Shown in pieces: positions 1,128-51,770 of a stretch of 54,399 nucleotides of DNA. Both the position numbers and the translations under genes were made by a program. Source of the DNA: Planctomycetaceae bacterium (GTDB taxonomy: Bacteria > Planctomycetota > Planctomycetia > Pirellulales > UBA1268); the NCBI GenBank assembly GCA_005791575.1, contig SXWA01000023.1, positions 1-54,399 on the forward strand, written 5' to 3'. Each line of letters begins with the position of its first letter. Position 1 is the stretch's first letter. The notes under the pieces were generated by a model, which worked only from the letters and a program-made list of their open reading frames with translations, had not been told where the DNA came from and made no database searches.

Positions 1128-1982
1128 ATGATCGAAGGCTTCTGTTTGTTCGGGTCGGCGATGCCCGACCTGTCGGTGTTTCAATACAACGCGGTGGACA
1201 ACATCTTTTCGATGACAGTCGCGACGATGGGGGCGGCCGCCCTGTTCTTGTTGATGTCCCGATCGCACGTCGATCCGGAATACCGGCCGGCTCTGCTGGT
1301 GTCGGGCCTCGTGGTTTCGATCGCCTGCTACCACTACTTCATGATTCGCCACAGTTGGCACGACGCCTACTCGCTGGTGGGCGGTGGGTACAAAGGCACC
1401 GGCGCTGCTTTCAACGACTTCTATCGGTACGCCGACTGGATCCTGACGGTGCCGCTGCTGATGGTCGAACTCGTGTCCGTCCTCCGCCTGCCCGCGGCAA
1501 AGGCGACGAATCTGCTGACCCGCCTTGTGATCGCGGCGGCCTTGATGATCGCGCTCGGGTATCCGGGCGAGGTGATCGCCGACCCGACGAGGTGGACCGA
1601 GAGGATCGTTTGGGGCGGGCTCTCATCGATTCCGTTCTTTTACATCCTGTACGTGCTCTGGACGGAACTGACACAGTCGCTCGACAGCCAGCCACCCGCG
1701 GCCCGCAAACTCCTCGAGATCGCCCGCCTGGTGATTCTGATCACATGGGCGGTCTACCCGATCGCCTATGCGATCGGTGGCACGCCCGACGCCCTGGCGG
1801 CGAAGGCTGGGACTGCCAATGCCGCCAATGGCGTGGTTGGTGCCAATGGTGTCGTCGGCCTGCAGATCGGATATGCGATCGCCGATATGACCGCCAAGGC
1901 TGGCTTCGGGGTGCTGATCTACCTGATCGCCCGGTCGAAGAGCACGAAGACCGCCTCGCACGAGGCGTATGCCTCCGCCTGA
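1128..1982 (+). CDS. Xanthorhodopsin/proteorhodopsin-like light-driven proton pump
   Basis: Seven-TM opsin. Helix C RYADWILTVPLLMVEL gives the D-T-E pump motif (D109/T113/E120 in ORF numbering from 1110), Leu at the spectral-tuning position, H75, and helix G YAIADMTAKAG with Schiff-base K263. ATG at 1128 is preceded by AGGTGA; the ORF track starts at a TTG at 1110. Confidence 0.96.
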   Translation: MIEGFCLFGSAMPDLSVFQYNAVDNIFSMTVATMGAAALFLLMSRSHVDPEYRPALLVSGLVVSIACYHYFMIRHSWHDAYSLVGGGYKGTGAAFNDFYRYADWILTVPLLMVELVSVLRLPAAKATNLLTRLVIAAALMIALGYPGEVIADPTRWTERIVWGGLSSIPFFYILYVLWTELTQSLDSQPPAARKLLEIARLVILITWAVYPIAYAIGGTPDALAAKAGTANAANGVVGANGVVGLQIGYAIADMTAKAGFGVLIYLIARSKSTKTASHEAYASA

Positions 1983-2016
1983 GTCGCGGATCCCTCTGCG
2001 GAAGAACAGTGATGAC

Positions 2017-2994
2017 ATGCACGCGGCCTCGGTAATCTTGCTCTGTTGGGCGATGATCGGGGCCGCGTGTTTTTTTTCTCAGGCCGCGGCCGGCGTTACA
2101 GCCGGCGTGCTGGCGATGCTCGTCGCGGTCGTCGGCCTGCCGCACGGCGCGGCCGACCATCGCTACGCCCGGCCGCGGCTCGAACCGGTTTTGGGCATGG
2201 CGTGGCTGCCGGTGTTTTTGGTCGGGTATCTGGCGGTTGCGGCGCTGGTCGTGTGCGGCTGGTTCGTGGCGCCGGCCGCCACGATCGTGGCATTTTTTCT
2301 CGCTTCCGCCTGGCACTTCGGCCAGGAAGATCCGCGGCTCTCGGTCGGTCCGCGGGGCCTGCGGCCGGTGTTCCGATTCGCTCGCGGAGGACTCGTGATC
2401 TGGACGCCGCTGGTGTTTCACCCCCGGGAAGTCGCCGCGATCCTCGGTCTGGCCGCGCCGGTGGGCTTGGGCCCCGCGATCCAGCATGCCACTGGCCTGC
2501 TGACGGCTTGCTCGTGGATCATGCTCCCGGTCGCGGCTGCCGCCTGGATTCTCCAGGGACTGGCGGCGTGCGCCCGCACCGGGCACAGAAGGCGGGTCTT
2601 GCTCACCGACAACGCGCTGGTCGCGTCGTTGGTGGTGCTCTTCGCCGTCGCGAACCCGCTCGTGAGCTTCCTGGTCTATTTCTGCGGCTGGCATTCGGTG
2701 CGGGGCCTCGAGCGACTCCGCCGGGAGCTTGGCGAGAGCTGGCCGGAACTGGCCAGGAGCCTCGCGCCCATGTCGTTGGGGGCAATCGTCATGGTCGGGC
2801 TGGCGGCATGGCTCGTGCTTGGCGGGGCGGGCTGGGATGGCACGCTCATCCGGGCGACGTTCGTCGGCCTGAGCGCCGTGGCCGTGCCGCATCTGCTCCT
2901 GCACGGCGTCGCCCCGTTGTGCGCGGCATCCCGCCGGCGGCGGCCGCAGTCGCTGCCCGGAAAGCCCCACATGACCTTGGGGAGCCCCGCATGA
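2017..2994 (+). CDS. blh: Brp/Blh-family beta-carotene 15,15'-dioxygenase (retinal synthesis)
   Basis: Multi-TM protein with GLPHGAADH, WHFGQED, YFCGWHSVRG and AVPHLLLHG His motifs; directly downstream of rhodopsin. ORF opens at 1969; ATG 2017 is the likelier start. Confidence 0.92.
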   Translation: MHAASVILLCWAMIGAACFFSQAAAGVTAGVLAMLVAVVGLPHGAADHRYARPRLEPVLGMAWLPVFLVGYLAVAALVVCGWFVAPAATIVAFFLASAWHFGQEDPRLSVGPRGLRPVFRFARGGLVIWTPLVFHPREVAAILGLAAPVGLGPAIQHATGLLTACSWIMLPVAAAAWILQGLAACARTGHRRRVLLTDNALVASLVVLFAVANPLVSFLVYFCGWHSVRGLERLRRELGESWPELARSLAPMSLGAIVMVGLAAWLVLGGAGWDGTLIRATFVGLSAVAVPHLLLHGVAPLCAASRRRRPQSLPGKPHMTLGSPA

Positions 2995-4181
2995 CATCCG
3001 TCCCGGAGTTCGACTACGGAATCGTGGGCGGCGGTCTTCAAGGCTGTCTCGTGGCCCATGCTTTGGCCTGGCACAGGCCGGAGGCGACCGTCCTGCTCCT
3101 CGAACAGGCCGATGAACTGTGCGGCAATCACACCTGGTCATTCCACGAGACCGACGTCGCCGAGTCGGCGAAAAGCTGGTTTGACCCGCTGGTCGCCCAC
3201 CGTTGGCCAGGCTATCGCGTCAGATTTCCGACGCTGTCGCGGCGGGTGAAGATCCCCTATGCGACGATCACGTCGGACCGCCTCCGCGAGGGAACACGGT
3301 CGCTGGCAGGTGGAGCGGGGGGCCTGGCGCGCCCCGGTCGGCTCGTCGTTCGCACGGGCGAGTCGTGCGACATCCTCGCGCCGAACGCGGTGAGACTCGG
3401 CGGGACCGCTGACGTGTCGTGCCGCGTGGTCCTCGACTGTCGCGGCCGGGCAGAGGGAGGGTCACCGGGCGGAGCGGGCTATCAGACCTTCATCGGACAT
3501 GAGTATGAGACCGCGCGCTGCTGGCCGGCAGCGGAACCGACGGTCATGGATGTCCCGGCTGACCAGGCCGCGGGCTTCGAGTTCCTCTACGAACTCCCCC
3601 TCGGACCTGATCGCGTGCTGCTCGAGTACACCCGGTTCCACGAGGAGCCGGTCTGTCCCGAATCGCGGGCTGCCGCGCTGATCTCGGCTCGGCTGGCCGA
3701 GGCCGGCGCGGGATCGGCGAAACTGATCCGAACCGAGCACGGGTGCCTCCCGATGCCCTATGCAGCCCCAGCCAGCCGTGATGGGCCGTCGCCGGCCGGC
3801 GGCTATGCCGGAGGCTGGTACCACGCCGCCACGGGATACTCGATGCCGCTGGCCGTTCGCTTCGCGGAGCTCGTCGCCCGGGCGCGCCCGGACCGGGTCG
3901 CCGCGGAGATCGCCTCCGCGGCCGCGGAGGACAGGCTGCGGCGCGGATTCGCCCGCTTTCTGAACCGGCTGCTGTTTTGCCTGGTCAAGCCGGAAGACCG
4001 CTGGAAGATCTTCCGACGGTTCTACCGCGTCCTGCCGGAAGAGCGAATCGCCCGGTTTTACGCCCATCGCTTCACGGTCAACGATGCGGCTCGGATCATG
4101 ATTGGCTGGCCACCCATCGGCCTGGCGCCGATTCGTTTCGCCAGGTCGTTTGTCTCGCTTCCGGGGCCACTGCCAACATGA
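2991..4181 (+). CDS. crtY: Lycopene beta-cyclase
   Basis: FDYGIVGGGLQGCLVAHAL FAD-binding N-terminus and CGNHTWSFHETD motif; ATGA overlap with blh. Confidence 0.92.
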   Translation: MTSVPEFDYGIVGGGLQGCLVAHALAWHRPEATVLLLEQADELCGNHTWSFHETDVAESAKSWFDPLVAHRWPGYRVRFPTLSRRVKIPYATITSDRLREGTRSLAGGAGGLARPGRLVVRTGESCDILAPNAVRLGGTADVSCRVVLDCRGRAEGGSPGGAGYQTFIGHEYETARCWPAAEPTVMDVPADQAAGFEFLYELPLGPDRVLLEYTRFHEEPVCPESRAAALISARLAEAGAGSAKLIRTEHGCLPMPYAAPASRDGPSPAGGYAGGWYHAATGYSMPLAVRFAELVARARPDRVAAEIASAAAEDRLRRGFARFLNRLLFCLVKPEDRWKIFRRFYRVLPEERIARFYAHRFTVNDAARIMIGWPPIGLAPIRFARSFVSLPGPLPT

Positions 4182-5176
4182 CTCACAATCTCCTCGGCTT
4201 CGCCGGCGCGACACACCAGACCACCCGCACGCGGCACGGCTGGTCCAGGGCCCTGCAACTCGCCCCCGACCTCTATCCTGGCGTGGGCGGCAAGCGGTTT
4301 CGGGCCACCCTGCTCGAGCGGGCCTACGAGTTCGCCGGCGGCCGTCGCACCGCTCCAGCGCCGATCGTCGACGCGGTCGAGCTCCTGCACGCCGGCTCAC
4401 TCGTGATCGACGACTTCGAAGACGACTCGCTCACCCGCCGCGGCCAGCCGGCGCTCCACCAGGTGATCGGTCCGGCCCGGGCCGTCAACGCGGGCAACTG
4501 GATGTATTTCCGCGCTCTGGAACTGGCGGCAGCCGCCTTGGACGATCCCGCCCGGTCGGTGGCCCTGGTGGGCAGGTTCATCGCGGTGGCGCGGCAGTGT
4601 CACGAGGGTCAGGCGATCGACCTCGCCATCCGGATCGACGAGGTCACTCCGCGGCAGGCCCAAGTCGCGGCGCTGACGATCTCACGGTGGAAGACCGGCC
4701 GCCTCGCGTCACTGGCCGCGTGGTGTGGGGCCAAAGCCGCCGCGGGAGACCCGCAGACGTTGCAAGCCGTTGCCGCCTTCGGCTGCCGGCTGGGCATCTG
4801 CCTGCAGATGAAAAACGATCTCGACGAGCTCAGCGAGCTGCTCGCTGGATCGGATCGGTGCGACGACCTCCGTAATCGCCGTGTCACCTGGCCCTGGGCC
4901 TGGGCCGCGAGCGAGCTGTCGGCCCGGCAGTTCGCAGCCTGGCAAGGCCGGCTGCGGCAATCGGAAGAACAGCGGGCAACGTTCCGCCCTCTCGCCAAGG
5001 ATCTGCTCGACGCGACCCACCGCCGGGCGGCGTCTGCGATCAACACCCGGCTCGACCAGGCGATCGAAAGGCTTACCGCCGCGACAGGCGGTGCCCGTGA
5101 AGCCGGCCCGCTGGCCGCGATCTGCGACGCCCTGCGGATCGCCATCGAGCCGACGAAGGCGGAGGCTCTCGCTTGA
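4178..5176 (+). CDS. crtE: Polyprenyl (geranylgeranyl) diphosphate synthase
   Basis: Isoprenoid-synthase features (GGKRFRATLLERAYE, HAGSLVIDDFEDDSLTRRGQPALH); position in crt operon; ATGA overlap with crtY. Confidence 0.85.
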   Translation: MTHNLLGFAGATHQTTRTRHGWSRALQLAPDLYPGVGGKRFRATLLERAYEFAGGRRTAPAPIVDAVELLHAGSLVIDDFEDDSLTRRGQPALHQVIGPARAVNAGNWMYFRALELAAAALDDPARSVALVGRFIAVARQCHEGQAIDLAIRIDEVTPRQAQVAALTISRWKTGRLASLAAWCGAKAAAGDPQTLQAVAAFGCRLGICLQMKNDLDELSELLAGSDRCDDLRNRRVTWPWAWAASELSARQFAAWQGRLRQSEEQRATFRPLAKDLLDATHRRAASAINTRLDQAIERLTAATGGAREAGPLAAICDALRIAIEPTKAEALA

Positions 5177-6723
5177 ACACGGCGCGCGTCGCAGTCTGGC
5201 GTCCGCCGCGGTCAGGTCTCGGCCCGCACCGGCGGGCGGCCGTGATCGGCAGCGGTTTTGGCGGTCTCGCGGCCGCCATCCGTCTGCAGTCGATGGGCTT
5301 CGACACGGTCTGCTACGAGGCCCACGATCAGCCGGGTGGCCGGGCTGCCGTCTACGAGGATGGCGGTTATGTCTTCGATGCGGGGCCGACCGTGATCACG
5401 GCCCCGCACTGCCTGGAGGAGCTCTTCGAGCTTTCCGGGAGACGGATCGCCGACTATGTCCGGCTGTTGCCGGTGACCCCGCTCTATCGACTCCAGTGGA
5501 GCGACGGCGTGGCATTCGATTACGTCGCCGACGAGGCGGGGTTGATCGAGCAGGTCCGGCGTGTGAACCCCGCCGACGTGGAAGGCTACCGACGCTTCGC
5601 CGAGTATGCCCGCCAGGTGTTCGCCAAGGGATACCAGGAGCTCGGCGCCGTCCCCTTCCTCCACTTCACCGACATGCTCCGAGCCGCCCCGCAGTTGGCA
5701 CGCCTGCGGGCCGACCGGAGCGTCTACGCGACCGTTTCACGATTTGTCAAGGACGAGCACCTTCGTGAGGCGTTCAGCTTTCACCCGTTGCTCGTCGGCG
5801 GGAATCCACTGGAGACGAGCTCGATCTACACGCTGATCCACTGGATCGAGCGCTCGTGGGGCGTGTTCTTTCCCGAGGGGGGCACCGGGGCGCTGGTCCG
5901 CGGTCTCGTGCGGCTCTTCCAGGACATCGGCGGTACGCTCAGACTCGAGGCTCCGGTCGATCGAGTCACGCTCGTGGCTGAAGGCGACCTGACCAAGCAC
6001 GTCATCCACGCCCCCGGCGGGCCGCCGGAGGCGTTCGATGCAGTCGTCTCAAACGCCGACGTCCACCACACCTACGCCAGGCTCTACCGCGGGGTCGCCG
6101 CAGCCGGCCGCCGGCAGCGGCGGCTGGAGCGAATGACCTGGTCGATGTCGTTGTTCGTGCTGTACTTCGGTACGAACCGCCGGTACCCGCATCTGGCCCA
6201 CCACACGATCCTGTTCGGGCCGCGGTTTCACGGGCTCTTGCGGGACATCTTTCATGGCCATCACCTGCCTGCCGACTTCAGCCTCTATCTCCACGCGCCC
6301 ACCGTCACCGACCCGGGCATGGCCCCGCCGGGCGGCGAGTCCTTCTACGTGCTCAGCCCCGTGCCGCACCTGGGCAACGCGGCGATCGACTGGGAGGCGG
6401 TGGCCACGGGCTATGGCGACGCCATCCTCGCGTCGCTCGAGACGCACCTCCCGGGGTTGCGCGATCGAATCGTGACCCGTCGGCACTGCACGCCCGCCGA
6501 CTTCGCGGGGAGGTTCAACGCCCATCACGGGTCCGCCTTCTCGGTAGCACCGACGCTCACCCAGAGTGCCTACTTCCGCCCCCACAACCGCGACCCGGAC
6601 ATCCCCGGACTCTACCTCGTCGGGGCGGGCACCCATCCGGGGGCCGGCGTGCCCGGTGTCGTCAACTCCGCCAAGGCCACCTGCGACACGATCGCGGCCG
6701 ACTTCCATGTCATCAGTCGGTAA
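5173..6723 (+). CDS. crtI: Phytoene desaturase
   Basis: AAVIGSGFGGLAAAIRLQSMG FAD motif, PGGRAAVYEDGGYVFDAGPTVIT, C-terminal GLYLVGAGTHPGAGVPGVVNSAKAT; TTG start overlaps the crtE stop. Confidence 0.95.
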   Translation: MNTARVAVWRPPRSGLGPHRRAAVIGSGFGGLAAAIRLQSMGFDTVCYEAHDQPGGRAAVYEDGGYVFDAGPTVITAPHCLEELFELSGRRIADYVRLLPVTPLYRLQWSDGVAFDYVADEAGLIEQVRRVNPADVEGYRRFAEYARQVFAKGYQELGAVPFLHFTDMLRAAPQLARLRADRSVYATVSRFVKDEHLREAFSFHPLLVGGNPLETSSIYTLIHWIERSWGVFFPEGGTGALVRGLVRLFQDIGGTLRLEAPVDRVTLVAEGDLTKHVIHAPGGPPEAFDAVVSNADVHHTYARLYRGVAAAGRRQRRLERMTWSMSLFVLYFGTNRRYPHLAHHTILFGPRFHGLLRDIFHGHHLPADFSLYLHAPTVTDPGMAPPGGESFYVLSPVPHLGNAAIDWEAVATGYGDAILASLETHLPGLRDRIVTRRHCTPADFAGRFNAHHGSAFSVAPTLTQSAYFRPHNRDPDIPGLYLVGAGTHPGAGVPGVVNSAKATCDTIAADFHVISR

Positions 6724-7639
6724 CAGCCCGACAGCGGGGGAGTCGATCCGGCGGCACAGCCGCTCGTTCTCTTTTGCCAGCCGGCTGCTGCCCGCCGGTA
6801 AACGGGCCGACGTCGAGCGTCTCTACGCCTGGTGTCGCTGGTGCGACGACGGCGTCGATACCGCCGCCTCGCCGCTGCAGGCGGTGGAGTTCGTCGAACG
6901 GGCCACGGAGGACGTCCGCCGGATCGCCGGCGGAAAAAGCCCGGTCGCCGCCGAGAGCCGCTGGCTGGCGGAGCTCGTCGGCCGGCACGACCTGCCACTC
7001 GAGGCGGCCCTGGCCCTACTCGATGGGATGCGGTCGGACCTCACGGCGGTGGCCGGCTTTCTCGAGGCCGACCTCCTGCGGTACTGCTTTCGGGTCGCCG
7101 GGGCTGTCGGGGTGCTGTTGTGTCCGGTCCTCGGCCTCGCGGATCGCCGCCTTCTCCCCCACGCCGCAGCACTCGGCATGGGAATGCAAATGACCAATAT
7201 CGCCCGTGACGTCGCGGAAGACTGGCATCGGTCTCGCTGCTACTTGCCGCTCGAATGGACCGACGGGCTGCGGCCCGGCGGCGGGCCGCCCGACCCACGG
7301 CAGGTACGGCGGGGCGTGCAGACGATCCTCGAAGTCGCCGACGGCTACTACACTGCCGGGGAGGCGGGCATCAGCGGGCTCGATACCGATGCCCGGTTGG
7401 CTGTCCGGGCGGCGGCGAGAATCTATGGCGCGATCGGGACTAAGATCAGGCGGCGAGGCTTCGAGGTGCTCGACGAACGGGCCCGGGTATCGACGCTGGA
7501 GAAGCTCAGGATCTTCGCCCGCGCGATGCTCACCGCAACCGGCGGCAGCCGTCCGATGCAGCTTGACGACTCGGCCCGGCGAGCCCTCGCCGCGGCCGAA
7601 CGACTGCTCGCGGAGTGTGGAACATCACTTCCGGGTTAA
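6707..7639 (+). CDS. crtB: Phytoene synthase
   Basis: HSRSFSFASRLLP, YAWCRWCDDGVD, MQMTNIARDVAEDW squalene/phytoene synthase motifs; start overlaps the crtI end by 17 bp. Confidence 0.93.
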   Translation: MSSVGNSPTAGESIRRHSRSFSFASRLLPAGKRADVERLYAWCRWCDDGVDTAASPLQAVEFVERATEDVRRIAGGKSPVAAESRWLAELVGRHDLPLEAALALLDGMRSDLTAVAGFLEADLLRYCFRVAGAVGVLLCPVLGLADRRLLPHAAALGMGMQMTNIARDVAEDWHRSRCYLPLEWTDGLRPGGGPPDPRQVRRGVQTILEVADGYYTAGEAGISGLDTDARLAVRAAARIYGAIGTKIRRRGFEVLDERARVSTLEKLRIFARAMLTATGGSRPMQLDDSARRALAAAERLLAECGTSLPG

Positions 7640-7758
7640 CAGGCTGTGGACAAACAGCCTGCTGCACCTCATGGATGAGGTGCCGGGAGCACAGCTCCCG
7701 TGAAAACCGCAGGTTTTCGAGTGGCCAAAGGCCAGGGATGGACTTTGGCCAAGGGCTG
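7640..7758 (+). repeat. Five-hairpin repeat, copy B
   Basis: caggctgtggacaaacagcctg-ct-gcacctcatggatgaggtgc-cgggagcacagctcccg-t-gaaaaccgcaggttttc-ga-gtggccaaaggccagggatggactttggcca; starts 1 nt after the crtB stop. Confidence 0.96.
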
Positions 7759-7801
7759 GTAAGGTTTCCAAACGTTCGATCCACCACCACGGAGTCTTGT
7801 C

Positions 7802-15020: not shown

Positions 15021-15168
15021 AACAGTCCGTGGTCACAGTCCATCCCTGGCTTCGGCCACTCGAAAAGCCCTGGCCTTTGGCCACTCGAAAAGCAGAGCTT
15101 TTCACGGGAGCCGCGCTCCCGGCACCTCATCGTTGACGTGCCGCAGGCTGTTTGTCCACAGCCCGTCA
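15021..15168 (-). repeat. Five-hairpin repeat, copy C, with internal ~24-bp duplication
   Basis: ccctggcttcggccactcgaaaag / ccctggcctttggccactcgaaaag duplicated; cgggagccgcgctcccg; gaaaagcagagcttttc. Confidence 0.92.
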
Positions 15169-15993: not shown

Positions 15994-16177
15994 GTGCCAC
16001 CAAACGAACCCCGCCACGGATAACCGGTGCCCTGCGGAGATTGCTCCGCAGGGCATCTGTGTTTTCAGCCCGGCTGGGAAGTGCCGATGCCCGATCAGGC
16101 GTTGGGGGAGGCGCCGGAACCGGTCGTCGCTGGAAGAGCCGACCGGCGACATGCAGGTGTTCGAGGCGACCCTGGCC

Positions 16178-16296
16178 GCCCGTGGCCAAAGTCCATCCCT
16201 GGCCTTTGTCCACTCGAAAACCTGCGGTTTTCACGGGAGCTTCGCTCCCGGCACCTCCATCCGTGAGGTGCAGCAGGCTGTGATCACAGCCTGCTG
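16178..16296 (-). repeat. Five-hairpin repeat, copy D
   Basis: gtggccaaagtccatccctggcctttgtccac, gaaaacctgcggttttc, cgggagcttcgctcccg, cagcaggctgtgatcacagcctgctg. Confidence 0.95.
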
Positions 16297-16833: not shown

Positions 16834-17198
16834 GAGAACACCTCCTCCCACGACATGACTCGTCGATCACGTGCCGTTGAAGGGGGGCACGAATCCCGTC
16901 GCGATTCCGCCCGCGGTCGACCCGCTTCGCGCTGACGCGGAGCATCCGGCCGCACGGGGGCTGCACGGCAACGTTACGCAGAAGCTCCACCGCAGCGAGA
17001 AGCCGGTGGTCGATGGCCACTTTCGGTGGGGCTGCAGGGTGCCAACGTGGCGCGACACTTCCCGCGGTCCGGGTCACTCGGGGGTGTCGTGAGGGTGTGC
17101 TGGCCCCCGCTGTGGCACGCGGCGTCGAGGCGATACGGCGCCGCCGATGCGGCCGCACAGGGCTGCCAGGCTTCGGGAGCCAGGGAGCGGTATGCCAG

Positions 17199-17310
17199 CA
17201 GCCCGTGCATCCCTGGCCTTTGGCCAATTGAAAAGCTGTGCGCTTTTCACGGAAGCTGTGCTCCCGGCACCTCATCCGTGAGGTGCAGCAGGCTGTTTGT
17301 CCACAGCCTG
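17199..17310 (-). repeat. Five-hairpin repeat, copy E (first hairpin arm partly deleted)
   Basis: cccgtgcatccctggcctttggccaattgaaaagctgtgcgcttttcacggaagctgtgctcccggcacctcatccgtgaggtgcagcaggctgtttgtccacagcctg. Confidence 0.93.
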
Positions 17311-19239: not shown

Positions 19240-19325
19240 CGCCCGTGGGACGGTTTTCACGGGAGCCGCGCTCGCGGCACCTCGGCCGTGGGGGGCCGCA
19301 GACTGCCGGCTCACGGACCGGCGGC
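19240..19325 (-). repeat. Five-hairpin repeat, degenerate copy F1
   Basis: cccgtgggacggttttcacgggagccgcgctcgcggcacctcggccgtgggggg; large hairpin deleted. Confidence 0.7.
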
Positions 19326-19348: not shown

Positions 19349-19465
19349 CAGCCCGTGGCCGAAGTCCATCCCTGGCCTCTGGCCACTCGAAACGCTTTTT
19401 TCACGGGAGCTGCGCTCTCGGCACCTCATCCTTGACGTGCAGCCGGCTGTTTGGACTCAGCCTGG
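19349..19465 (-). repeat. Five-hairpin repeat, copy F2
   Basis: cagcccgtggccgaagtccatccctggcctctggccactcgaaacgcttttttcacgggagctgcgctctcggcacctcatccttgacgtgcagccggctg. Confidence 0.9.
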
Positions 19466-26699: not shown

Positions 26700-28256
26700 A
26701 TGGCCCAGGAAGTCACCATTCCGCGGCTCGGCTGGTCCATGGAGGAAGGAGTCTTCGTCGAGTGGCTCAAGGCGCCCGGCGAATTCATCCGCTCCGGCGA
26801 GATGGTGTTCGTGCTCGAAGGGGAGAAAGCGGCCCACGAGATCGAGTCTTTGGATTCGGGGTACCTGTGTGTGCCCGATGATGCGCCGCGCGCCGGCGCC
26901 AGCGTCAAGGTCGGACAAGTGATCGGATTTCTCCTCGCCGAAGGTGAAGCCCCGCCAGTCTCCGTGGGGAAACCGCCGGCCGGCACTTCCCCGGCCAGCA
27001 GCACTCCCGCGTTGGCGATCGCCCCTTCCTCCTCGCCGCCGGCAGTGTCGCCACCGGCAGTGTCGCCGCCTTCCGTGACGATGCCGCGCGCGACTGCAGC
27101 GCTCGCTGCCACAGCACCATCACGCGCCGCCGGTCCGGCCGCTCGAAGACTCGCCCGGGAATTGGGGATCGACCTCAACGCAGTCTTCACACCCGACCCG
27201 ACAGGCCGGGTGCTTGGCGAGGATGTCCGACGAGCTGCCGAGGCCCGGCGACACTCCGTTCAGCCAGTGGAGCCGGCACGATTCGCCACGCCGCGTGCCC
27301 GTCGTCGGGCGGGGGAACTCGGCGTGGACTGGACGCAGTTTCCCGGGACAGGACGCAACGGGCGTATTCGCGAGCGCGATGTGATCGCGCGACCGATGGC
27401 GACGGCAGGTAGCCAGCAGGCTGTGGATCAACAGCCTGCTGCACCGGAGGGATCCGGTGCCGGGAGCGCAGCTCCGGTGAAAAGCGGAGCTTTTCGAGTG
27501 GCCAAAGGCCAGGGATGGACTTTGGCCACGGGCAGCCAGGCCCAGGCGCCCGAACCAGCGCCGGTATCCCCTGGTCAACACACTCCGGCTGCGAAACTGC
27601 GTCGCATCCTGGCACAGCGCATGCTCGCCGGAGTGACTCAAGCCGCGCCGGTCACCTTGACCACCAAAGTCGATGCCGCCCCGCTCGTGGCCTACCGTGC
27701 CAACCTCAAGAGCCTCGCCCCGACGGGCCAAGCACCCAGTTTCAACGACATCGTGATACGGCTGGCCGCACTCACCCTGCGCGCCATGCCGGAACTCAAC
27801 GCCTGTTGGTATCGGGACGGAATCCACGCCTACGATGCCATTCACATCGCCACCGCGGTTGACACCCCTGCGGGTTTGTTGGCCCCGGTCATTCGCCACG
27901 CCGACCAATTGAGCATCGCCCACATCGCCGAACAGACCCGTCACCTGATCGCGCAGGCGCGGGCCGGTCGGCTGAATCAAACGCACCTCGAAGGGGGAAC
28001 GTTCACGGTCACCAACCTTGGAATGTTCGGCATCGACGCGTTCACGCCGATCCTCAACCTGCCTCAAGCCGGGATTCTCGGCATCGGTCGGATTCTGGAA
28101 GAGCCGGTCGTGAGAGCCGGCCGCCTCGAGGTCGGACAAACCCTCTCCCTCAGTCTCACATTCGATCATCGCGTCGTCGACGGCGCTCCCGCCGCCCGCT
28201 GGTTGCAGTGCCTCTGCGAGCGGATTCAAGCAGCCGGGGACCGGCAGCCGTCATGA
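26700..28256 (+). CDS. Dihydrolipoamide acyltransferase (E2) with a repeat-derived linker
   Basis: Lipoyl domain (EGEKAAHEIES), two E3-binding-like segments, repeat-encoded peptide [39 protein letters not shown], catalytic domain ending TFDHRVVDGAPAARWL. Confidence 0.9.
   Translation: MAQEVTIPRLGWSMEEGVFVEWLKAPGEFIRSGEMVFVLEGEKAAHEIESLDSGYLCVPDDAPRAGASVKVGQVIGFLLAEGEAPPVSVGKPPAGTSPASSTPALAIAPSSSPPAVSPPAVSPPSVTMPRATAALAATAPSRAAGPAARRLARELGIDLNAVFTPDPTGRVLGEDVRRAAEARRHSVQPVEPARFATPRARRRAGELGVDWTQFPGTGRNGRIRERDVIARPMATAGSQQAVDQQPAAPEGSGAGSAAPVKSGAFRVAKGQGWTLATGSQAQAPEPAPVSPGQHTPAAKLRRILAQRMLAGVTQAAPVTLTTKVDAAPLVAYRANLKSLAPTGQAPSFNDIVIRLAALTLRAMPELNACWYRDGIHAYDAIHIATAVDTPAGLLAPVIRHADQLSIAHIAEQTRHLIAQARAGRLNQTHLEGGTFTVTNLGMFGIDAFTPILNLPQAGILGIGRILEEPVVRAGRLEVGQTLSLSLTFDHRVVDGAPAARWLQCLCERIQAAGDRQPS
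27411..27540 (+). repeat. Five-hairpin repeat, copy G, in frame inside the E2 CDS
   Basis: caggctgtggatcaacagcctg-ct-gcaccggagggatccggtgc-cgggagcgcagctccgg-t-gaaaagcggagcttttc-ga-gtggccaaaggccagggatggactttggccac; flanked by AGCCAG on both sides. Confidence 0.96.
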
Positions 28257-28270
28257 CGAGTATCGATAGC

Positions 28271-28388
28271 ACCCCGTGGACAGAGTCCGTCTCTGGCCCG
28301 TGGCCACGAGAAACGCCGCACCCTTCCCGGCCACGGCTTTTCCGTCACCTGATCCATGAGGTGCAGCAGGCTGTTTGTTCAGAGCGTG
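28271..28388 (-). repeat. Five-hairpin repeat, degenerate copy H
   Basis: ccccgtggacagagtccgtctctggcccgtggccacgagaaacgccgc...gatccatgaggtgcagcaggctgtttgttcagagcgtg. Confidence 0.75.
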
Positions 28389-30501: not shown

Positions 30502-33500
30502 ACGTGAACTCGGCGGTGTTGAAGAGCACGAGGCAGACGTCGGCGAGGGCCCGGGTGCGTGCGTCGCAGTCGGCCGGCTCCAGGTCGGGGACGAAGTCGG
30601 CACCCGCGTGCAATGTCTCGGTGAACGAGAAGGTCTCTCCCGTGTTCTCCTCGACGGCCTCGCGGCGCACCACCGGCGGCGGTCGCACGCGACCGGGGGT
30701 GATCCCCGCCTGCTCGATCTCGAGTTCCCGCCAGTGGGCAAGGCAGGCGGTGCGCTCGTCGGGGCTGGCCGGCCTGCCGTACACGAGGAAGAAACAGCGA
30801 TCGATCGCGCGTTCGTCGGCGCGATCGGCCAGGCCGGTCTCGCGCAGGACGCGTGCGGCGAGCGCCACTGCCCGGGCGTGGCTCGCCCGGCCGTTGAACA
30901 GGGTGAAGACCTGCGGCGTGACGATCGTCGTATCGCGCCGTTCGCAGGAGAAATCCGGAGTTGGGGTGTTGAAAACCTCCATGGCCGGGTCGCCGAGGCC
31001 GCGGAGCTTGAGGGCGTAGAGAGACCGGCGGTGACGCTCCTCGGGACGGGGGTTCGGCACCCAGGCGGCCGCGAACGTGCCCATCACCTGGCGGGGCTGG
31101 AGGGCGACCTCGGCGTTGATTTCGGGGCGATTGGGGATGCCCCCCACCGCCGGGTTGAGCTCACCGGTCGCCATCAGCATCGCGTCGCGCAGTTCCTCCG
31201 CAGACAGTCGCCGCGGATGGAACACCGCGTAGCCCGTGCCGAGCGGATCGAGCGCGCGCACCGCCCGTGGGTCGGGGTGGAGAGCGGCGCGCCGGTAGGC
31301 GGCGCTCCCGAGGATCTGTCGATGGAGGGCTTTGACCGACCAGCCCTGCTCCACGAAGGAGGCGGCGAGCCAGTCGAGCAGCTCGGGGTGGGTCGGCCGT
31401 TTTCCGGTAACGCCGAAGTTGTTCGGGTTTCCGGCGAGTGGCGTGCCGAAGTGCCACATCCAGACGCGGTTGACGATCGCCCGGCTGGTGAGCGGATTGG
31501 AGGGGCTCGCCACCCACTCGGCGAATGCCCGGCGGCGGCCCTCGATTCCATCGGGGATCGGGTTGGGGGCGACACCGCCGAGCACCGAGAGCACGCCGGG
31601 CTTCACAGCGTGGGCAGGCGCGAAGGGATCGCCCCCGACGAGGATCGCGGTGGCCTCGATCTCCCCCTTCGTCATCCGGTCCTCGGGCACGCGGAGCGGG
31701 GTCAGGATCGTCTTGTACTCGCGCGTGCGGCCCGTGTAGACGGCCAGCGCCCAGGGCTCGTACCGTTCGAGCGCGAAGGCGAGCCGCTCGAGACCCTTGC
31801 GCGCCACCCGTTCGAGGCCGAACTGCTCCGGTGTGAAGCCGACGAGCTTCGGCGGAAAATCCTCCTCCGGCTCCCCCCCATCGAGAAGCTGCCGCCGTGC
31901 CTCGGCGAAGACGTCGGCATAGGGGCGGCGGCGTTTCCCCGCCCGGGATGCCTCCTCCTGCCGCCGGCGCGCCATGGCGACCGCGCCGTGCCACCGCGTC
32001 GGATCCTTGCCGTGCTCGGTGAACCACCGCGCGGCATTGTCGAGCAGCACCGCGTCGAGGCGCGCGAGCGTGGCGATGTGCTCCTCACGGGCCCGTTCAA
32101 GCGCCGCACGCTCGCCGAACCCGGCGGTGTTCTCCGTCGGTAGGAATGGGGCCGCCGGCTCGGCCAGTTGGGTCGTCGCGAACACCGCCTGGATCGCGTA
32201 ATAGTCACGCGTCGGCACCGGATCGAACTTGTGGTCATGGCAGCGGGCGCACTGCAGCGGGTGGGCGAGGAACGTCTCCCCCACGCTGTTGACCACGTCG
32301 TCGAGGAATCGCTGCCGGGCGATCTTCTCGACCTCCATGCCGGTGAGCTCCCATGGACCCATCCGCAGGAACCCGGTCGCGATCAGTTTCTCCGGATCCC
32401 CGGGCCCGAGTTCGTCGCCGGCGATCTGCTCGCGTACGAACCGGTCGTAGGGCTTGTCGTCGTTGAACGAACGCACCACATAGTCGCGATACCGCCAGGC
32501 GTTGCCACGCTCGTAGTCGTTGGCGAATCCGCCGGAGTCGGCGTAGCGGGTCACGTCGAGCCAGTGCTGCGCCATCCGCTCGCCGTGATGGGGGCTGGCA
32601 AGGAGCCGTTCGACGACAGTGGCGAACGCGGCGTCGTCGTCGCGCTCATCGGCGAGGAACGCTTCCATCTCGGCAGGTGTGGGGGGCAGGCCGGTGAGAT
32701 CGAACGTGACCCTGCGCACCAGCGTGCGGCGGTCGGCGGGCGGGGCGGGGATGAGCCCTGCCGGCAGCCGTGCCTCCAGGAATGCATCGATCGGGTGCGT
32801 CGCGGAAACCGCGCGAGGAGATGTCGCGGAAACCGCGCGAGGAGATGTCGCGGAAACCGCGCGAGGAGATGTCGCGGGAACCGCGCGAGGAGATGTCGCG
32901 GGAACCGCGCGAGGAGATGTCGCGGGAACCGCGGGCTTCAACACGGGACGGTATGCCCACAGGCCTGCAGGGTCGTAGCGCCGCGCGTCCCAGGCGGGAG
33001 ACAGGCCGCCGGAGGTGGCGATGGTGACGCCATCCTCCTCCGTCCATTCGTCCGCGTGGCGTGCCCGGATCGCGGCGACGCGGTCGGCATCCGGCCAGAC
33101 CGCGCCGGCGACGATCCATTCCCGCAGCCAGACGATCTCCTCGTCAGAAAGCCGGTCGGCCGCCTTGGGGGGCATCGCCGAGACGCCGGGATCATCCCGA
33201 CGAACCGCCCGCAGGAGCGTGCCGGCAGCGGCGTCCCCCGGGACGATCGCGGCCGTGCCGCTGTCGCCACCGCGCAGGGCCGACTCGCGGTTCGTGAGCG
33301 ACAGCCCCCCCTCGACGGCAGCGGGATCGACGGCAGAAGGATCGGCACCGTGGCAGGCCGCACACTTCGCGGCCAGGAGCGGGGCGATCCGCCGCACGAA
33401 CAGGCGTTCGTGATCCGTGGCCGCTCGAGCGGCGTCGGGCGGGGGAGCGCCGGCCCCGCGCCGTGCCGACATGCCCAGGGCACAGCCGAGAAGAGCCGCG

Positions 33501-39454: not shown

Positions 39455-40857
39455 GCAGCGGAGTGAAGGACGGGCGGGGGGGCGGTGGCGCCGCAGCCCT
39501 GCTGCCCGGCTGGGTGCGCGGCCGTCTCCACGATCTCGGCATGGCGTGGGTGCTTCTCGGTCTCTGTGTCCTCTTCAGCGCCCTCACCTGGACCGAGCAG
39601 CAGCCGGTCGGTGCCGCGGCCGCCCGCGGCGTGGCCGACGACATCCTCGCCGCCCATGGGCCGGCTCCCCGGGTGCTCGTGGCGGTGCGTGGGCAGCCCG
39701 ACGACGTCGCCTTCGCCGATTCCGTCGCGGCGCTGCTGCGCCAACGTGGAGCGACGGTGGTCGATGTCGTGAAGGGGGAGCCGCGGGACGCGCGGACGGC
39801 GCTCGGCGCGGTGGGTGTCTCCGGGGGACCGCTCGACGTGATCGCGGCGAGCGCCGCGAGCGCCGCCTGGGCGCTGTTCGCCGATCTGCCCGGCACCTTC
39901 CCGGCGCTCGGCACGCCGGCGATCGTCCAGCCGCGGCCCTACTCCTGGCCCAACTTCCTCAAGACCGGGAACCTGCTCAACATCGCCAACCAGATCGCGG
40001 TGATCGCGATCCTCGCCGTGGGGATGACGCTCGTGATCATCACCGGCGGGATCGATCTCTCCGTGGGCAGCCTGATCGCCCTCGCCTCCGTGGTGACGGC
40101 GCTGATCGTCCGCGACCTCGCCGGCGGTGTCGGGGCTGGGGCATGGGGCATGCTGCTGGCCGGGCTCGGCGGTGTGGCCGTCGGCGCGCTCGCCGGCGCG
40201 CTCGCCGGCGCGGTGATCGTGGGGTTCGGCATCCCCCCCTTCATCGCCACTCTCGCGATGATGCTCGTCGCGGGCGGTGGAGCGTCGATGCTCGCCGAGG
40301 GGCAGAGTGTGTATCAGGTGCCCGACTCCTTCATGTGGCTCGGGCGCGGTGCCGACCTCGGCCTGCCCAATGCCGTGGTCCTCGTGCTGCTCCTCTATGC
40401 GGTGGCCCACGTCGTCATGACACGGATGACGTTCGGCCGCTGGCTGTTCGCCGTCGGGGGCAACCGCGAGGCGGCGCGGCTCTCCGGGGTGCCGGTCGCC
40501 GGGACGCTGCTGGCGGCCTACGTGCTCTCGGGGGCGCTCGCCGGACTCGGCGGCGTGGTGATGGCCTCGCAGCTCAAGAGCGGCTCGCCGAATTTCGGAC
40601 AGATGTACGAGCTCTACGTGATCGCCGCGGTGGTGGTGGGGGGAACCAGTCTCGCCGGCGGCGAGGGGAGCATGGTGGGGACGCTCGTCGGCGCGCTGAT
40701 CATCGCGGTCATCCAGAACGGCATGAACCTCGTCGGCGTCGAGAGCTACACGCAGCGCGTCGTCCTCGGCGCGGTGATCCTCGCGGCGGTTCTCCTCGAC
40801 CGCTGGCGGAGGGCCTACCAGGCTGTGGATCAACAGCCTGCTGCACCTCACGGATGA
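39451..40857 (+). CDS. RbsC-like sugar ABC transporter permease; C-terminus and stop from repeat copy I
   Basis: IAILAVGMTLVIITGGIDLSVGSLIALASVVTALIV and other BPD_transp_2 features; ends ...AYQAVDQQPAAPHG*, encoded by the repeat; ATGA overlap with the ATPase. Confidence 0.92.
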   Translation: MSSGVKDGRGGGGAAALLPGWVRGRLHDLGMAWVLLGLCVLFSALTWTEQQPVGAAAARGVADDILAAHGPAPRVLVAVRGQPDDVAFADSVAALLRQRGATVVDVVKGEPRDARTALGAVGVSGGPLDVIAASAASAAWALFADLPGTFPALGTPAIVQPRPYSWPNFLKTGNLLNIANQIAVIAILAVGMTLVIITGGIDLSVGSLIALASVVTALIVRDLAGGVGAGAWGMLLAGLGGVAVGALAGALAGAVIVGFGIPPFIATLAMMLVAGGGASMLAEGQSVYQVPDSFMWLGRGADLGLPNAVVLVLLLYAVAHVVMTRMTFGRWLFAVGGNREAARLSGVPVAGTLLAAYVLSGALAGLGGVVMASQLKSGSPNFGQMYELYVIAAVVVGGTSLAGGEGSMVGTLVGALIIAVIQNGMNLVGVESYTQRVVLGAVILAAVLLDRWRRAYQAVDQQPAAPHG

Positions 40858-40937
40858 GGTGCCGGGAGCGCAGCTCCCGTGACCAGCGCAGCTTTTCACG
40901 TGGCCAAAGGCCAAGGATGGACTTTCGCCACGGGCTG
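40819..40937 (+). repeat. Five-hairpin repeat, copy I; its left end is coding
   Basis: caggctgtggatcaacagcctgctgcacctcacggatgaggtgccgggagcgcagctcccgtgaccagcgcagcttttcacgtggccaaaggccaaggatggactttcgccacgggctg. Confidence 0.96.
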
Positions 40938-42624: not shown

Positions 42625-42703
42625 GCACGGTGCCTGGTAGCAGCACGGTGCCTGGTAGCAGCACGGTGGCCAAAGGCCAGGGATCGACTTTGACCACGGG
42701 CTG
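42625..42703 (+). repeat. Partial five-hairpin repeat, copy J, preceded by an 18-bp tandem duplication
   Basis: cacggtgcctggtagcag x2, then gtggccaaaggccagggatcgactttgaccacgggctg. Confidence 0.85.
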
Positions 42704-51731: not shown

Positions 51732-51770
51732 CAGCCGGTGGCCCACGTCCATCCATGGCCCTTGGCCACC
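51732..51770 (-). repeat. Partial five-hairpin repeat, copy K (terminal hairpin only)
   Basis: cagccggtggcccacgtccatccatggcccttggccacc. Confidence 0.65.

Follow-up and report, generated by a model that had tools for sequence, protein, structure and literature searches.

A five-hairpin MITE of planctomycetes that shares its ends with an IS1182-like insertion sequence

What kind of element is the short, hairpin-rich sequence that recurs along this planctomycete contig? The window analysed here, 54,399 nt, is an entire contig of a 3.84-Mb host genome (74.5% complete, 274 contigs), and the contig start falls inside a copy of the element. The original prediction offered three readings: a non-autonomous mobile element, a structured RNA or a chromosome-architecture site. 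The first of these gained support from target duplications, inverted ends and an insertion sequence (IS) with the same ends; the other two did not gain support.

All 12 places listed in that prediction are copies, in both orientations: nine are full-length (one of them cut by the contig start) and three are fragments (Table 1). The layout claimed for the reference copy (7640–7758, + strand, 119 nt), five abutting hairpins, was matched exactly on folding, hairpin by hairpin. The DNA fold of this copy has an energy of −42.7 kcal/mol (z = −9.0 relative to dinucleotide-shuffled sequences), and for the RNA fold of a copy from the host genome the value is −67.2 (z = −6.7). The element has a G+C content of about 61%, and it is bounded by imperfect inverted repeats: CAGGCTGTGG on the left and CAGCCCGTGG, the reverse complement of the right end, agree at 8/10 positions; the two ends follow the patterns CAG..CYGTGG..AAAG and CTTT..CCACGG..CTG. 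Elsewhere in the window, positions 1969–7639 hold a carotenoid-type cluster assigned from Pfam (beta-carotene dioxygenase-like, polyprenyl synthetase, amine oxidase/desaturase-like and squalene/phytoene synthase genes), and a 24-nt tandem repeat, GTCGCGGAAACCGCGCGAGGAGAT, lies at 32775–32957 within a planctomycete cytochrome (PSCyt1/PSCyt2/PSD1) gene.

Table 1. Copies of the element in the window, and the parts of the reference copy
Feature	Position	Strand	Remarks
Element copy	1–114	−	Full-length except cut by contig start
Element copy	15023–15165	−	Full-length, internal insertion
Element copy	16176–16293	−	Full-length; target duplication CCAG/CCAG
Element copy	17192–17310	−	Full-length; 3' end decayed
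Element fragment	19251–19312	−	
Element copy	19349–19464	−	Full-length
Element copy	27417–27535	+	Full-length; inside E2 acyltransferase gene, in frame; target duplication CCAG/CCAG
Element copy	28270–28388	−	Full-length, decayed
Element copy	40819–40937	+	Full-length
Element fragment, right hairpin	42666–42703	+	
Element fragment, right hairpin	51733–51769	−	Weakest, E = 4e-4
Left target-site copy, reference copy	7636–7639	+	TTAA, whose TAA serves as stop codon for the phytoene-synthase-type ORF 6566–7639
Hairpin 1	7640–7661	+	CAGGCTGT/ACAGCCTG; left terminal inverted repeat is the first ~15 nt
Hairpin 2	7664–7683	+	GCACCTCA/TGAGGTGC
Hairpin 3	7684–7700	+	CGGGAGC/GCTCCCG
Hairpin 4	7701–7719	+	Core GAAAACC/GGTTTTC
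Hairpin 5	7721–7752	+	Best-conserved module across superfamily
Right terminal inverted repeat	7741–7758	+	Consensus GACTTTGGCCACGGGCTG; end of reference copy reads CCAAGGGCTG
Right target-site copy, reference copy	7759–7762	+	GTAA, 3/4 match

The element is a genome-wide family rather than a peculiarity of the window. BLAST against the host genome gave at least 55 matches, with 220 candidate places, and exact left ends (YYRR-CAGGCTGTGG) occur 112 times, against 2 for the reversed pattern, while exact right ends (CCACGGGCTG-YYRR) occur 81 times, against 4; these numbers, obtained by pattern and profile searching, are minimum values. Strand counts of 50/62 for left ends and 40/41 for right ends show no strong strand bias. 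Between full-length host copies, sequence identity is about 93%. Single-hairpin mini-elements of ~41 nt with the ends of the element were also seen in the host (L189 ~1255–1300, G000:C89; L014 ~1620–1665, G000:C170), adjoining stop codons or larger copies; they are possibly a minimal mobile unit or remnants.

Turning to how copies reached their places, exact 4-nt duplications flank 17 of 46 distinct full-length host copies, and none has a duplication of 5 nt or more. Shuffled flank pairs give an expectation of 3.0, and 17 was reached in 0 of 20,000 trials; with tandem copies excluded, the figure is 12 of 31, against 2.1 in shuffled pairs. The target consensus is YYRR (CTAG, CCAG, TTAG, TCAG, CTGA, CTAA, ATAG and TTAA were seen), and copies in two other genera are flanked by the same 4-nt duplications, mostly CTAG. 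The orthologous place in a congener (G002) is without the element: 25 nt lie there between matching flanks that enclose 153 nt in the window; this pairwise comparison, made with the element removed, is supportive only, since the species are about 75% identical and the alignment is not base-perfect. Judged from sequence, the repeat is an inserted transposable element and not an RNA family, and presumably spread by transposition.

A candidate source of the transposase was reached through a PF01609 search together with the 3' end of another locus (L082). The DDE_Tnp_1 search yielded one truncated copy, in the congener G003, in which the DNA past the stop codon ends in GGGCCACGGGCTG followed by CTAG; this matches the element's right end together with the target and represents the 3' part of the partner-type IS. 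An intact IS from the same bacterial family as the host (L277 64–1554, 1,491 bp) begins with CTAG and CAGCCTGTGGAAAAAGTC, encodes a 453-aa transposase and closes with CTTTGTCCACGGCCTG and CTAG. Two further copies, one of 1,487 bp (L252) and one of 1,120 bp with an internal deletion (L249), are each flanked by CTAG/CTAG. Over the terminal 18 nt, element and IS agree at up to 17/18 positions at the right end and at 14/18 (subfamily A) to 16/18 (subfamily B) at the left end, while windows from the IS interior never exceed 12/18 against the left end. Only these terminal ~18 bases are common to the two; the hairpin interior is not derived from the IS.

The partner transposase contains the domains DUF772 (PF05598), DDE_Tnp_1 (PF01609) and DDE_Tnp_1_6 (PF13751) above cut-off. 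Its best NCBIfam model is IS1182 (NF033551), at 193.4 bits, below the curated cut-off of 270, and the best of the IS5 models is NF033581 (IS5_4), at 101 bits, below the cut-off of 140; these scores place the partner IS at the edge of the named families. On proteobacterial plasmids, relatives at ~41–44% identity show CAG..CTG ends together with exact duplications of 4 nt (CTAA, TTTG, TGTA, TTAG). A protein search found the G003-type transposase in 19 of 72 genomes of the family, and it tracks the element weakly, being present in 8 of 20 genomes that have the element and 3 of 16 that do not (hand count). No copy was detected in the host assembly, which is 74.5% complete and breaks at repeats. 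No ORF enclosed by paired ends and YYRR duplications turned up in searches of 1.06 Mb and then 1.62 Mb; single odd ends on eight host contigs were truncated or decayed copies or lay among ordinary genes, with no transposase, and ordinary genes likewise surround one isolated right hairpin (L127).

In its genomic context, the element is mostly intergenic: when genes were called from codon usage with a simple finder, 37 of the 43 copies in 427 kb lay between genes, compared with 12.5% of random places. In 12 of the 43, an ORF of 100 codons or more enters the element and takes its stop codon from the flanking target; random non-coding points gave this 8 times, in a test of 5,000 draws from which only the small share falling outside genes was kept. 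Among called genes, six copies abut a stop codon and none abuts a start codon. The targets CTAG, TTAG, TTAA and CTGA contain stop codons, and insertion there therefore leaves the protein intact. The gaps that hold copies are convergent, tandem and divergent in near-background proportions, with copies on either strand relative to genes. A terminator role was considered and rejected, as there is no terminator-like site at the reference copy and no convergent-gene bias among the copies. One copy lies in frame within a gene: the E2 dihydrolipoamide acyltransferase gene (26700–28256) carries an insertion of 41 codons, made up of the element and its 4-nt target duplication (119 + 4 = 123 nt), between the E3-binding (aa 195–228) and catalytic (294–510) domains. 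Hairpin 2 of this copy is the variant CACCGGA/TCCGGTG, without the in-frame TGA of the majority form.

Copies also stand in arrays. All 21 neighbouring pairs no more than 60 nt apart are head to tail, with spacers that are mostly 4-nt YYRR and a period of 123, and array neighbours are 96.6–99.2% identical, compared with 93.2 ± 2.9% for random pairs; many contigs end within arrays. Copies inserted independently would be expected in both orientations; the more likely origin is therefore tandem amplification, by slippage or through a dimer or circle intermediate.

The element is a known kind, a miniature inverted-repeat transposable element (MITE), in a new and unusually regular variant. It is short (119 nt), has no transposase ORF, is present in high copy number, and has terminal inverted repeats and a 4-nt target duplication; its ends and CTAG/CTAG flanks are common to the autonomous IS copies described above. 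From these common ends we infer mobilisation in trans by the partner transposase, and MITE status with an IS1182-like IS as the driver is, in our assessment, very probably the correct account. We propose that the IS1182-like DDE transposase would recognise both ends of the element in trans and cut a short YYRR target with a 4-base stagger, producing the 4-base duplications. Insertions within genes would mostly be lost, so that surviving copies would be intergenic and in many cases placed precisely at a stop codon, which duplication of the YYRR target would preserve; a rare copy, 41 codons with its duplication, could be retained in frame. Some copies may later have been amplified head to tail. 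The interior is a series of perfect hairpins in which stem sequences change but complementarity is preserved.

That last property is the argument for a different reading, in which the copies are a structured RNA family (a regulatory element, sRNA or stabiliser of mRNA ends) kept for RNA function. The stems of 93 distinct host copies are paired at 96.3% of their cells, compared with 34–46% in slid controls. Both-sided changes affect 27 of 44 stem pairs within the host genome, against 4.9 in shuffles, and 25 pairs across genera, against 12.2 (changed cells, 118 against 38), in alignments that were fitted to the model and with shuffles that ignore phylogeny. Against this strong covariation stand the target duplications and IS-like ends, which show insertion, and the near-background gap types on either strand, which leave no consistent gene context. 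Rfam gave no match in the window at gathering score, and a relaxed E-value gave chance-level matches only. Mismatched stem cells are G-T and A-C about equally often (23 against 28). Neither strand therefore shows the wobble preference expected under selection on an RNA, and a role as RNA is not indicated, although late neutral decay could dilute this test. Moreover, template-switch repair is known to bring imperfect palindromes closer to perfection (PMC7202029); paired changes also arise in this way, and the process could maintain paired stems without any selection. We regard the RNA reading as unlikely. Less probable again is a site for chromosome organisation or protein binding that selection has spread: its regular sequence and many intergenic copies would suit such a role, but the stems are lineage-specific, strand bias is not strong and target duplications are present; we found no positive evidence for it, and insertion between genes and at stop codons explains the positions.

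Two other routes of mobilisation were weighed against the IS1182-like partner. High copy number, palindromic sequence and extragenic position would fit a REP/BIME-type element, with a RAYT (HUH) transposase as the driver. The RAYT domain Y1_Tnp (PF01797), however, was found in five control genomes but in none of the four genomes of the genus that were searched, a contradiction of this route that agrees with the initial view of the element as unlike REP/BIME units; together with 4-nt staggered duplications, a 119-nt unit of five hairpins, and arrays that are head to tail rather than alternating, it leaves the route with almost no likelihood. An IS701-type (DDE_5) transposase, also CTAG-targeting, was at first the expected driver, given the 4-nt target, and two loci (L080 and L081) join an IS701 relic to an element copy. 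IS701 copies in the family nevertheless carry other ends, TTCGACTTTTGCAGTTT or TACTAC..ACGTTAGCT, which differ from the CAG..CTG of the element; IS701 was rejected as driver on this ground and is most improbable, and its association with the element is attributed to common CTAG targets. The two fused loci (L080 1380–1780, G000:C190; L081, G002:C25) are orthologous, each an IS701-type relic joined to the 3' part of an element copy; they are ~96% identical where these genomes elsewhere are ~75–83% identical, and CTAG flanks the joined unit in L080. At a further locus (L153), an element copy in CTAG directly adjoins the end of an IS701-type element, with CTAG used by both.

As with the way in which the arrays form, we infer the reason for the hairpins of this MITE: we think that upkeep of the stems reflects DNA-level hairpin formation, through template-switch repair and/or structural need, rather than a conserved RNA. 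Possibly, the hairpin chain is itself a working part, with extruded or single-stranded DNA hairpins needed for transposition or array amplification, stem sequences free, and stems, loops, order and length kept across genera; we hold this only tentatively and consider it doubtful. If true, it would define a class of MITE by a conserved DNA fold instead of by sequence.

The covariance-model search suggested with the original prediction was carried out, and the family was found in 20 of 59 relatives. These include all four genomes of the genus and eight genera of the same family; the model found the element in none of 23 genomes from other families of the order. Across genera, the ends and the 3' hairpin are the same and the internal hairpins differ; the five-hairpin plan is kept over several genera, with stem sequences turning over by paired changes. 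A scan with the 3' hairpin, one genome per species, identified at least 57 stretches, and nearly all titles among the matches listed are planctomycete. The exceptions among them are one Actinomycetota MAG and several of Candidatus Kuenenia, a planctomycete of another class. Related hairpin elements are held by seven contigs titled Candidatus Kuenenia stuttgartiensis or Actinomycetota MAGs, which represent either mislabelled bins or spread beyond the family.

Several consequences follow from this MITE. A five-hairpin plan that outlives its sequence is a natural test of selection against template-switch repair as the process keeping DNA hairpins perfect, and with a same-ended IS partner named, trans-mobilisation is directly testable. 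The element helps explain the fragmented assemblies of planctomycetes, in which contigs end inside arrays. Stop codons emerge as a harmless landing site for insertion, and in the single case of the E2 gene a mobile element has been retained in frame as an enzyme linker.

Compared with known systems, the partner IS resembles IS1182-like and IS5-superfamily insertion sequences in its DUF772 plus DDE_Tnp_1/DDE_Tnp_1_6 transposase, a domain make-up that fits the IS1182 family, and in its 4-bp target duplication, as reported for the captured IS1182-family element ISPse1 (PMC3281130); it departs from the named families in scoring below the NCBIfam cut-offs for both IS1182 and IS5_4. The element itself is like the ERIC, RUP and Correia/NEMIS MITEs in being short, non-coding and abundant, with inverted ends and a target duplication, and in lying mostly between genes and sometimes in frame within them (PMC2229807). 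For RUP, mobilisation in trans by the IS630-Spn1 transposase has been proposed (PMC2229807). These families have mostly TA ends and are A+T-rich (PMC2229807), whereas the present element has a 4-nt YYRR target, a G+C-rich sequence, five separate abutting hairpins and head-to-tail arrays. REPs measure 20–40 nt, are tagged with GTAG or CGTC and are associated with tyrosine (HUH) transposases (PMC2817692, PMC3733652); the element is likewise palindromic, extragenic and of high copy number, but at 119 nt, with ends CAGG..GCTG, it is not a GTAG/CGTC-tagged palindrome of 20–40 nt. Finally, it resembles the Rickettsia palindromic elements (PMC2229807) as a palindromic repeat sometimes found in frame in protein genes, and differs from them in that in-frame insertion is exceptional here, the E2 copy at 27417–27535 standing apart from a mostly intergenic family.
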